A stretch of 64,000 bases of DNA from SAR86 cluster bacterium SAR86B (GTDB lineage Bacteria; Pseudomonadota; Gammaproteobacteria; Magnimaribacterales; Magnimaribacteraceae): assembly GCA_905182235.1 (NCBI GenBank), contig CAJJAM010000003.1, forward strand, positions 1 to 64,000. Reading direction: 5' to 3'. The notes below the pieces were generated by a model. The model had not been told where the DNA came from. It ran no database searches and worked only from the letters and a program-made list of their open reading frames with translations. The stretch's first letter is position 1, and the number at the start of each line of letters is the position of its first letter. The position numbers were made by a program, and so were the translations under genes. Below, one piece after another: positions 2,832 through 26,702 of this stretch.

Positions 2832-2869
2832 TACAAATAAATCAAAAATAGGTAATGTAGAGGTCTGAT

Positions 2870-3832
2870 ATGAAACTTTTTTACCTCTCTTTGACAATTG
2901 CTATTTCTGCTTCAAGCTTTTTAAATATTTCTGCTTCTGAAAGCCAATACGATGGCTTTCAAAAAAAAATAGAAGTTCCTTTGGCGGCTTCTTTGCCGAT
3001 TAAAGGTATTAAAGCTGACTATTGCATAAAAAAACCTAAAGCTGGGAGATCTTCTTTCAATTGTGAAGGGCTAAGCTTCGTATTGAATGTCCCAGTAATA
3101 TGCCTTACTAAATCATGCGGACTAATTATAGATGTGCATGGCTGGAATATGGATGCCAGAATACAAGACCGCAATACTAAGCTTATAAAACTGGGTGGTG
3201 AAAAAGGATATATCGTCTTGAATCCACAAGCGAAGAAATCAACAACAGGAAGATCATGGACTCCTAAAGATGACAAGAAAGTTCTTGCTGTCATCAACAG
3301 TGTAGAAAAAGCTTTCCAAGTGATGGAGGAAAGGGTGCATTTCACAGGTTTCTCTCAAGGAGCCCTCATGACTTGGAGGTTTGTTTGTAAGTACTCTGAA
3401 AAGTTTGGATCTGTTGCACCCATTGCTCACGGTGCAGGAACTTATATTAGCTCTGCAAGGCCTCTTAGGATTAAAGTCATGGATAATTGTTTTGGAACAA
3501 ATGAATTAGATATTTTGTATGCTCATGGAAGTAAAGATAAGTTGGTACACTTTAGTGGAGCAATAAATACCGTCAAAAAAATTGGCAGTGAGTGGCAATT
3601 AGGCAATGCAAAGATAATCTCTGAAGATGAAAACCATAAACGCATACGGTTTAGTAACTCAAAAGGTACTAAATTAGAATTTCTCAGCTATGATTGGATT
3701 TCTCAATATGGATCCGGCCATTGCTTTCCTGGAGTAAAGAGTTACCTCGGATGCGGAGAAAACAACCCGTTGCGTTGGGGCGAAGAAGTTCTTAAATTTT
3801 TTATAGACAACCCCAAGGTAGCACCAAGCTAA
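2870..3832 (+). CDS. Secreted PHB-depolymerase/feruloyl-esterase-like hydrolase
   Basis: This is a 320-aa serine esterase of the LpqC/PHB-depolymerase group (COG3509-like). It starts with a signal peptide (about residues 1-23), so it probably acts in the periplasm or outside the cell. The strand and oxyanion motif DVHGW is near 89, the nucleophile elbow GFSQG around Ser162, a candidate Asp223 in GSKD, and a candidate catalytic His284 in SGHCFPG. Several cysteines could form disulfides, as usual for secreted members. Likely substrates are polyester, feruloyl or other acyl esters; the sequence does not decide between them. Its stop codon is nested with that of the convergent small gene at 3829. 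Confidence 0.85.
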   Translation: MKLFYLSLTIAISASSFLNISASESQYDGFQKKIEVPLAASLPIKGIKADYCIKKPKAGRSSFNCEGLSFVLNVPVICLTKSCGLIIDVHGWNMDARIQDRNTKLIKLGGEKGYIVLNPQAKKSTTGRSWTPKDDKKVLAVINSVEKAFQVMEERVHFTGFSQGALMTWRFVCKYSEKFGSVAPIAHGAGTYISSARPLRIKVMDNCFGTNELDILYAHGSKDKLVHFSGAINTVKKIGSEWQLGNAKIISEDENHKRIRFSNSKGTKLEFLSYDWISQYGSGHCFPGVKSYLGCGENNPLRWGEEVLKFFIDNPKVAPS

Positions 3833-23892: not shown

Positions 23893-24507
23893 CTACATTG
23901 TCCCCTTCAAATTAACTCTGCCACTAAAAGCATGCATGATTGTTCCTCTGTCCACATACTCCAACTCTCCTCCTAGAGGCACGCCTTGGGCTAATTTAGT
24001 TAAACTTAAACTTTCAATGTCTTTAAGAGAATCATAAATAAAGTGTGCCGTTGCTTCTCCTTCAAGGGTTGAATTTGTAGCCAAGATCATCTCACTGATT
24101 TCTTCTGACCTAACCATTAAAAATAGCTGGTTTAATCCGAGTTGTTCAGGGCCGATGTCGTCAATGGGAGATAAATGTCCGTGCAGAATAAAATACTTTC
24201 CTCTAAATTGATTGCTTTGTTCGATTGCAAATACATCGGAGACCGACTCAACCACACAAATAACTTGCTTATCCCGTTTCTCATTCTTGCAGATTGAACA
24301 GAGTTCATCTTCAGAGAAGATTCTGCATTGTCGACACTGGCCAACCGACTCCAAAGCAAGACTAAGTGCTTCAGAAAGCAGTTTTCCACCCTCTCTTTCT
24401 CTTTCTAATAGATGAAGCACCATTCTCTGTGCAGATTTTGGACCTACCCCAGGCAGACACTGTATAGATTCTATTAAACTATCAACAAGAGGACTTACCT
24501 TGCTCAC
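23893..24507 (-). CDS. recR: Recombination protein RecR
   Basis: RecR (204 aa) acts with RecF/RecO to load RecA at gaps. The N-terminal helix-hairpin-helix includes LPGVGPKSAQRMVLHLL. A C4 zinc module is visible as CRQC followed by CSIC (about residues 57-72). A Toprim domain holds VVESVSDVFAIE, and the C-terminal GVPLGGELEYVDRGTIMHAF motif is complete. It starts with GTG, overlapping the dnaX stop in GTGA. The usual ybaB gene between dnaX and recR is missing. Confidence 0.95.
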   Translation of the reverse strand: MSKVSPLVDSLIESIQCLPGVGPKSAQRMVLHLLEREREGGKLLSEALSLALESVGQCRQCRIFSEDELCSICKNEKRDKQVICVVESVSDVFAIEQSNQFRGKYFILHGHLSPIDDIGPEQLGLNQLFLMVRSEEISEMILATNSTLEGEATAHFIYDSLKDIESLSLTKLAQGVPLGGELEYVDRGTIMHAFSGRVNLKGTM

Positions 24508-26207
24508 TTGGAATCCCTAGGTTCAATTGAAGAATCAATAATTTTTCCATCTAGAGAATCCAAGAGTATCTTTACATTTGGATCTTCTTTAATAGCATTC
24601 TCTGCCTCGATCTTTATTTTATCTTTTTCAGCAGCTTTAATTTTATTGGGAGATTGGTTGCTAATTTCTCCTGATTCAAAAAACACGTTGCAATCATGCC
24701 CTAGAAAAATTGAGATACTTTCCTGTAATCTCTGCCTATGTTTACCACTAAATAATTCTAGTTTTTCTTCTGGCATTGAAAGGTAGATTACTGAATCATC
24801 TGTTCTAACAAAAGAACAGTGAGAGGCCAGCTGCTTAGTGCCCAGATCAAGATCTAATAATTTGAAGGTATCGTTCCAGTTTGATAGATCAATTTGAATA
24901 TTTGTCTTCACGACATCACTTTCTTCAATACTGCCTTCTTCAGCTTCAATTGCATCTATTTTTTTAACAGAGGATTCTAAATCTTCTACCGACCCCTCCT
25001 CTTCTAAAGATATTTTAGATTCGGGACCTTGCATTAGATTGACCTTTAATGAGCCCTCTTCTCCTTGAATAGTTTCTACTTCTGAATTAATAGGTTTTTT
25101 TTTATAAACCTCTTTATTTTTTTCTTTAGGCACAAAAGCCAACATTCTTAACAATGCCATCTCAAAACCACTGGCTATGTCCGGAGCTAAATCCATATCC
25201 CTCTTAGCAAGCAATCCAATCTGGTAGAGAATTTGCACCTCATCCAAAGTTAACCCATCAGATAATGCAATTATCTCTTCTTTTTTAACGTCTACATCCA
25301 AGAGGCTTTCTGGAGAAATCTGTGCAACAGCTAAATGCTGAATAGTCTCTAATATAAGATCCATTAACCTCATGTAATCAATGCTTAACTGGCTAACTTC
25401 CTTCAATTGAAGAAGCAATGCCTTGGCATCATGTGAAACAATTGAAGCTAATAATTTATTTACATGATCAAAAGACAAGGTACCTAACATTTCCGATATG
25501 CCTTCATCGGTAAGTTCTCCGTTACAGTAGGCAATTGCCTGGTCTGTAATAGTCAAACAATCTCTTAAGCTTCCTCTTCCAGCTCTGGCTATCTGAGAGA
25601 TACTTCCTTGATCAAAAGAAATACCTTCATCTTTTAGAATAACTTCTAATCTTTCCTTAAGTTGCGTGGGAGTTAAGTTTTTTAAATTAAATTGCAAGCA
25701 TCTAGAGAGCACTGTGGCCGGTATCTTCTCAGGTAAGGTTGTAGCCAGAATAAAGATGACGTGTTCGGGTGGCTCTTCCAATGTCTTAAGCAACATATTA
25801 AAGCTTTGGGGAGAAAGCATATGAACTTCATCTAACAAATACACTTTGTAACGCGATGAACTGGGCATGTACATAACCGTTTCTAGTAGCTGCTTTGTGT
25901 CATCAACGCCTCTGCTTGAGGCAGCATCAATTTCTTGAAAATCCATGAAACTTCCTTCAGAAATAGATATGCAAGTTGGACATTCATGACAGGGTTTTGA
26001 ATCTAAGCCTTTTTCACAATTTAAACTTTTTGACAAGATACGGGCAATAGTCGTTTTCCCTACTCCACGAGTTCCACTTAGTACATAAGCTTGGTGAATT
26101 TTATTTTGATCTAAAGCATTGGATAAAGCTTTTACAACATGCTCTTGGCCGACAACTTCTGAAAAATCTGTTGGCCTCCATTTTCTTGCTAGTACTTGAT
26201 AACTCAT
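24504..26207 (-). CDS. dnaX: DNA polymerase III tau (gamma/tau) subunit
   Basis: This clamp-loader ATPase (567 aa, shorter than the 643-aa E. coli tau) has Walker A GTRGVGKT (45-52), a zinc module with Cys64, 73, 76 and 79, Walker B LLDEVHM (about 124-130), sensor SRC near 168-170 and the clamp-loader collar domain to about residue 365. The low-complexity acidic linker and tau-specific C-terminal region follow. At codons 369-371, exactly after the collar, nine consecutive A residues give KKK. Slippage by -1 or +1 there meets a stop within a few codons and would give a gamma-like product of 373 or 376 residues. Confidence 0.95.
   Translation of the reverse strand: MSYQVLARKWRPTDFSEVVGQEHVVKALSNALDQNKIHQAYVLSGTRGVGKTTIARILSKSLNCEKGLDSKPCHECPTCISISEGSFMDFQEIDAASSRGVDDTKQLLETVMYMPSSSRYKVYLLDEVHMLSPQSFNMLLKTLEEPPEHVIFILATTLPEKIPATVLSRCLQFNLKNLTPTQLKERLEVILKDEGISFDQGSISQIARAGRGSLRDCLTITDQAIAYCNGELTDEGISEMLGTLSFDHVNKLLASIVSHDAKALLLQLKEVSQLSIDYMRLMDLILETIQHLAVAQISPESLLDVDVKKEEIIALSDGLTLDEVQILYQIGLLAKRDMDLAPDIASGFEMALLRMLAFVPKEKNKEVYKKKPINSEVETIQGEEGSLKVNLMQGPESKISLEEEGSVEDLESSVKKIDAIEAEEGSIEESDVVKTNIQIDLSNWNDTFKLLDLDLGTKQLASHCSFVRTDDSVIYLSMPEEKLELFSGKHRQRLQESISIFLGHDCNVFFESGEISNQSPNKIKAAEKDKIKIEAENAIKEDPNVKILLDSLDGKIIDSSIEPRDSK
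25091..25116 (-). promoter_or_regulatory. Candidate programmed frameshift/slippage site in dnaX
   Basis: On the coding strand an A9 run (25103-25095) is preceded 4 bases earlier by GAGGT, a good anti-Shine-Dalgarno match. The -1 frame continues ACC TAT TAA and the +1 frame AAC CTA TTA ATT CAG AAG TAG. E. coli uses an A-rich slippery site with an upstream SD-like element in dnaX, and Thermus uses a run of A in the same gene. Function here is inferred. Confidence 0.55.
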
Positions 26208-26252: not shown

Positions 26253-26702
26253 TCATTTTTTAATTAAAGAGAAAGCTTTATCAATATCTGAGAAATCGAA
26301 ACCTCTATAGTTCAAGAAACGCTTCAATTTAAGTATTTTATCTCTATCATCCGGCAAGGAACCCCCTGTTTTTTTTTGTAAACTTGCATAAGCAAGAAGT
26401 GACCAGTCTTCAGAATTAATTAAACTCTGTGATATTGAGTCGCTAACACCTCTTTCTCTAAGTTCATTTTTTATGCGCAAAGGACCAAAGCCTTTTCTTT
26501 TTCTGCTGTGCATATAACTCTCAGCAAATCTTTCATCACTGAGGAGTCCTTCATCTTCTAATTTCTGAATTTCAACTTCCAAGTCATCTGACGATTCTAT
26601 TCGTGAATGTAATTTTCTACGGATTTCTTTTGCAGAATGTTCTCTTCTGGCTAAATAATCCATGATTTTTAGTCTAATTGCCTTTGGATTATCTAAGATC
26701 AT
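26253..26702 (-). CDS. recX: Regulatory protein RecX
   Basis: RecX (149 aa) is a three-helix-repeat protein that modulates RecA filaments. Family motifs are LARREHSAKEIRRKL in the first repeat, DEGLLSDERFAESY in the second and KRKGFGPLRIKNELRERGV after it. recA is not adjacent in this window. The gene lies upstream of dnaX on the same strand with 45 bases between, and diverges from the Fe-alcohol dehydrogenase. Confidence 0.9.
   Translation of the reverse strand: MILDNPKAIRLKIMDYLARREHSAKEIRRKLHSRIESSDDLEVEIQKLEDEGLLSDERFAESYMHSRKRKGFGPLRIKNELRERGVSDSISQSLINSEDWSLLAYASLQKKTGGSLPDDRDKILKLKRFLNYRGFDFSDIDKAFSLIKK

Follow-up and report, generated by a model that had tools for sequence, protein, structure and literature searches.

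Does the dnaX gene of this SAR86 genome give rise, besides the full-length clamp-loader subunit tau, to a shorter gamma-like DnaX, and, if so, is it the ribosome or the RNA polymerase that shifts? The question is raised by a run of nine A residues that lies in frame, just past the region encoding the collar and about two-thirds of the way through the gene. The genome assembly comprises 1.06 Mb in 44 contigs and is about 83% complete; the window, by which we mean the whole stretch of DNA analysed, covers 64,000 nucleotides of it. The features on which the argument turns are listed here in the order in which the gene is read.

24504..26207, minus strand: dnaX, full-length product tau, 567 residues (open reading frame and Pfam matches PF13177, PF22608, PF12169 and PF12170)
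Residues 20-178 of the dnaX product: AAA+ ATPase (Pfam)
Residues 182-230 of the dnaX product: lid (Pfam)
25119..25511, minus strand: collar (domain III; PF12169, residues 233-363), which would end the gamma-like product
Residues 364-441 of the dnaX product: linker between collar and domain V
25108..25112, minus strand: GAGGT, a pentamer resembling a Shine-Dalgarno (SD) sequence, ending 4 bases before the A9
25095..25103, minus strand: A9 run, AAA AAA AAA, codons 369-371 of dnaX, a conserved element and putative slippery run (sequence and orthologues)
25087..25089, minus strand: TAA, first stop of the -1 frame, for a 373-residue product after one extra A in the mRNA or a -1 ribosomal shift
25076..25078, minus strand: TAG, first stop of the +1 frame, for a 376-residue product when one A is missing from, or two are added to, the mRNA
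24525..24884, minus strand: tau domain V (PF12170, residues 442-561), which binds Pol III alpha and would be missing from the gamma-like product

These positions bear out the sequence-only reading of the locus, which had placed the run at codons 369-371 right after the collar, had noted early stops in both alternative frames (products of 373 and 376 residues) and had GAGGT ending 4 bases upstream. With one extra A the protein would end ...KKK-T-Y-stop, and with one A fewer ...KK-N-L-L-I-Q-K-stop. The run reads A_AAA_AAA and is then followed by C, so the gene lacks the A_AAA_AAG heptamer.

We consider it probable, judging from the comparison of sequences set out below, that the A9 is a programmed transcriptional-slippage site of the type found in Thermus thermophilus dnaX. 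RNA polymerase copying the run would produce a mixture of mRNAs with 8, 9, 10 or more A residues. Messages with 9 (or 9+3n) A would be translated into tau; with any other count the ribosome would meet a stop a few codons into the -1 or +1 frame, which would yield a gamma-like DnaX of about 373-376 residues. This protein would consist of the ATPase and the collar and would be able to join the clamp loader; the domain map, taken together with what is established for DnaX in E. coli and Thermus, would make it a gamma-like subunit that lacks the alpha-binding domain. We infer that slippage occurs and that it does so mainly at transcription, and the same holds for the ratio of the products and their roles. 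Slippage of 15-55% on homopolymer runs has been documented in genes of Citrobacter, Yersinia and Shigella (PMC4256274).

How readily would such a run arise by chance? Genome-wide counts, obtained by pattern search and from 18 retrieved stretches, gave 27 A9 windows on both strands, and because only about 14 of these are sense-strand runs inside open reading frames, the probability of one sense A9 in a linker of about 100 nt is about 0.001. Within the window, coding sequence avoids A9 only mildly, with 3 runs against the 7.6 +/- 3.3 expected under synonymous shuffling. The third of these runs, besides those in dnaX and recX, lies on the sense strand of a 323-codon open frame (run at 2961-2969, frame at 2861-3829, plus strand). 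Beyond the chance figure, it is conservation that we regard as the decisive point for the dnaX A9.

We therefore turn to 105 SAR86 dnaX genes that represent 21 genera and four families (f1-f4) and were gathered by order-wide sampling and from retrieved regions. The run was scored as present when 9-11 A occurred no more than about 100 nt from the collar motif. Relatives that write these lysines with AAG or lack the run, the outcome that the sequence-only reading had set against its own proposal, are not what this comparison returned: a run of 9-11 A is present in 103 of the 105 genes, in 20 of the 21 genera and in all four families, counts that are not independent events since the genes share descent. 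The exceptions are L018, which has no run, and L069, with A8; all others have at least nine A, and a bare 7-mer was never seen. L018 (genome G015) is also the one exception in family f1, where, of 23 genes that include the region, 22 read AAA AAA AAA while the surrounding residues vary freely. Its lack of a run implies either that members of the order can do without gamma or that this genome makes it by other means. G015 is the largest genome of the family, and its linker holds no other clear shift signal.

The run persists while nearly everything about its coding context changes. It is read in phase 0 in f1 (AAA AAA AAA), mostly in phase 1 in f2 and f3 (GAA AAA AAA AAT or CAA AAA AAA AAT, also CAA AAA AAA AAN, with A10), and in phase 2 both in genus g13 (TCA AAA AAA AAA) and in f4 (TCA, GTA or TTA followed by AAA AAA AAG or AAA), so that the peptide at the run varies between KKK, EKKN, QKKN and SKKK. 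Family f3, whose linker between collar and domain V has shrunk to about 20 residues, still carries A10 or A11. In two f4 species (L164 and L169) the run has moved, with AAA AAA AAA at +18 nt from the collar motif instead of the usual position near +40, where only shorter A runs are left. These changes of register, together with the relocation, indicate that it is the run itself that is selected, and neither the peptide nor a fixed codon phase. A further regularity concerns the base before the f1 run (25104 in this gene), which is T in 22 of 22 genes, compared with 36% T at third positions overall, although the codon differs and the residue that it encodes varies among Y, H, P, T, A, N, V, L and S; with the first two A of the run, this T forms a TAA in the -1 frame.

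Could the run nonetheless be a mere by-product of a conserved lysine-rich patch of the linker, written in an AT-rich genome and involving no recoding? The linkers are indeed rich in lysine, AAA makes up 77% of the Lys codons in SAR86 dnaX genes, and A9 occurs in other genes of the genome as well. Under such a view, however, one would not expect the A run to stay while its register and the flanking codons (GAA, CAA, TCA, TTA, AAT) change, nor AAG to appear, as it does, only as the last codon of runs that are already at least nine A long. Control runs behave differently. The A9 of recX, the gene directly upstream of dnaX (26369-26377, minus strand, QKKT), is broken outside the closest relative, with the lysines mostly kept and AAG codons mixed in, and none of the relatives examined, congeners included, retains any of four more sense A9 runs, which lie in two gene pairs; across these five control sites lysine codons do become AAG, AGA or GAA in relatives. 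Elsewhere in the 100 intact SAR86 dnaX genes, A9 occurs 11 times in 159 kb. We thus regard the by-product explanation as very unlikely, a judgement to which GC-rich genomes contribute below.

If the run is there to shift the frame, the stops beyond it should be informative. In the same 100 intact genes, both alternative frames are closed within 30 nt of the run in 98%, compared with 59% when downstream codons are redrawn synonymously and 51% at other linker positions; these contrasts are descriptive, as the sequences are related by descent and are not independent trials. A -1-frame stop lies within 24 nt of the run in every one of the 100 genes (median 4 nt), and a +1-frame stop within 30 nt in 98, the +1 frame alone rising from 67% to 98%. 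Taken with the conservation of the run, the stops in both frames support the core of the sequence-only reading, an A run set to make a gamma-like DnaX, and it appears very likely that the run is selected as a slippery sequence giving a short product, mainly through transcription in the probable case and mainly through the ribosome in an unlikely one.

In that second, unlikely case, gamma would be made on the A_AAA_AAA of the run by programmed -1 ribosomal frameshifting, as in E. coli but without stimulators. Every run of at least nine A contains this heptamer in frame, so that the ribosome may contribute to the shift; the -1 stops are very near, and the run closes with AAG in genus g15 and in many f4 genes, which supplies A_AAA_AAG. 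The enrichment of +1-frame stops nevertheless favours polymerase slippage, since such stops would be useless to a -1 ribosomal shift but useful to a polymerase that adds or omits bases. The run is, moreover, always longer than a heptamer requires, A_AAA_AAG needing only six A, and A_AAA_AAA is much less prone to shifting than A_AAA_AAG in E. coli (PMC5009743).

Stimulators of the E. coli kind should also leave a trace, and here comparison of related dnaX genes separates two elements that the sequence-only reading had joined: the A9 is conserved, and the SD-like GAGGT is absent from both of the other species of the genus, where the energy of the anti-SD duplex is -2.9 and -0.9 kcal/mol compared with -6.5 kcal/mol here. 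Across the order, anti-SD pairing in the 20 nt upstream of the run is not enriched (mean percentile 0.44 against random windows of the same genes). We therefore rejected GAGGT as a stimulator, and being unconserved even within the genus it is probably incidental to the sequence. The earlier failure to see a clear downstream hairpin holds up: the 65 nt after the run fold with z = +0.97 in this gene and with a mean z of -0.18 over 101 SAR86 genes. An A7 in GAA AAA AAT (codons 362-364) was considered as an alternative slip site and discarded, as it reads GAG AAA AAT in the nearest relative (L003) and is not conserved.

The genome has two tRNA-Lys genes, with anticodons CUU and UUU, where the E. 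coli type goes with a single tRNA-Lys (UUU), and this likewise speaks against the ribosomal explanation; the review PMC5009743 states that T. thermophilus also has two and that this may be relevant to RNA polymerase slippage instead of a ribosomal shift. The lack of SD or hairpin enrichment and the two tRNA-Lys fit slippage of the Thermus type better than -1 frameshifting of the E. coli type. Whereas the sequence-only reading had left the choice between ribosome and polymerase open, the evidence thus favours the polymerase.

A few genes depart from the rule in a way that bears on a different explanation, namely that the run is a phase-variable switch working by replication slippage in the DNA and not by transcription. 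In three SAR86 genomes the run is off by one base (A8 in L069/G175, A11 in L084/G154, A10 in L165/G088): a stop closes the zero frame within 4-7 codons, and beyond the run the tau part lies open in a different frame. In almost every other genome, however, tau is in frame; a run kept in frame throughout the order, and in a replication gene that is essential, is unlike phase variation; and homopolymer assembly errors suffice to explain the off-by-one cases. We consider a DNA switch highly improbable. These three genes may represent a real two-ORF form, in which tau itself would need a one-base slip and which would speak for transcriptional slippage, or an error of homopolymer sequencing or assembly. 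A further SAR86 gene (L091/G104) keeps its A10 intact but meets a stop in the zero frame some ten codons later; its tau part lies in a different frame, and the frame break is not in the run itself.

Is the arrangement confined to SAR86? We scanned 450 nt in each of 112 dnaX tails from other members of the class and phylum, drawn evenly; the sampling is modest, and loci were retrieved partly as best matches to the ATPase-collar part, never picked by their linker. A run of A9-A11 occurs in 12 of the 112, always within 130 nt of the collar, where about 1.5 would be expected from a first-order Markov model. Among genomes of at least 50% GC, exactly A9 was found in 4 of 64 and A8 in none, with about 0.07 expected. 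The GC-rich genomes that bear the run span 52-69% GC, which is hard to reconcile with a by-product of AT-rich lysine codons; the dnaX of L204 (69% GC) reads GCG GAA AAA AAA ACT CTG, a motif shared by Variovorax dokdonensis (L057) and a Limnohabitans genome (L052), both found by similarity and outside the 112-tail count. AT-richness alone was rejected as an explanation, the AT-rich gammaproteobacteria L177, L190, L192, L201 and L210 (25-36% GC) having no run of at least nine A after the collar. In L202/G241, a gammaproteobacterium outside SAR86 whose genome is rated 100% complete, A11 is followed immediately by a zero-frame TAA, and the tau part has 211 open codons in the -1 frame. Such a two-ORF dnaX would depend on the slip for its tau; a homopolymer assembly error may also account for the arrangement.

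From these sequences, modest as their sampling is, the poly-A device in dnaX seems to recur in the phylum, which extends the published T. thermophilus and two-ORF examples. With some reserve, we favour the broader proposal that the SAR86 order makes gamma by polymerase slippage on A9-A11 as standard, that the device was gained repeatedly across Pseudomonadota, even in GC-rich genomes, and that some lineages are inverted, with tau depending on the slip. Among the papers searched, none covers both SAR86 and dnaX.

How does the proposed site compare with known ones? T. thermophilus dnaX (Larsen et al. 2000, as cited in PMC1088944 and PMC5009743) also has nine sense-strand A residues, encodes tau in one ORF and has, as here, nearby stops in both other frames and two Lys tRNAs. 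The Thermus run lies about seven-eighths through the gene (PMC1088944), whereas that of SAR86 lies about two-thirds through, straight after the collar, and slippage is proven in Thermus, a phylogenetically remote organism, and predicted for SAR86. The two-ORF dnaX genes with A10, in which a poly-A run separates the gamma and tau parts, were likewise proposed to use transcriptional slippage (Antonov et al. 2013, PMC3711429); in those genes it is tau that needs the slip, whereas in SAR86 gamma would, except in L069, L084 and L165, and L202 also belongs to the two-ORF kind. Caulobacter crescentus too derives a short DnaX from its tau gene, but by proteolysis and not slippage (PMC5009743). E. coli dnaX is the same gene and has the outcome proposed here, namely tau and a short product that ends not far beyond the shift site. 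Its signal, however, is A_AAA_AAG flanked by an SD upstream and a stem-loop downstream, in place of which SAR86 has nine A and neither stimulator enriched. E. coli gamma extends somewhat past domain III, where the SAR86 short product would end right after it.

What is the relevance of a short DnaX to these bacteria? The cellular importance of gamma has long been disputed in E. coli. More than 100 sampled genomes of a streamlined marine order have retained the run while the surrounding linker was rewritten or shortened to about 20 residues, an argument for selection of the short form. An earlier genome survey of slippage sites noted that slippage which truncates the product, as in dnaX, is difficult to assess comparatively, since no new coding sequence comes after it (PMC1088944); changes of register, relocation of the run, enrichment of stops and control runs that are not conserved together provide a comparative test for sites of this class. 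On comparative grounds, the SAR86 genes make a solid case for recoding of a known kind in a group that is both new and ecologically large, and SAR86 metatranscriptomes allow a direct check of the slippage reading.

At its other end, the dnaX stop overlaps the start of recR (GTGA, 24504-24507, minus strand), with no ybaB in between. Ribosomes that terminate at the gamma stop would miss this coupling point, and slippage might therefore also reduce the translation of recR.
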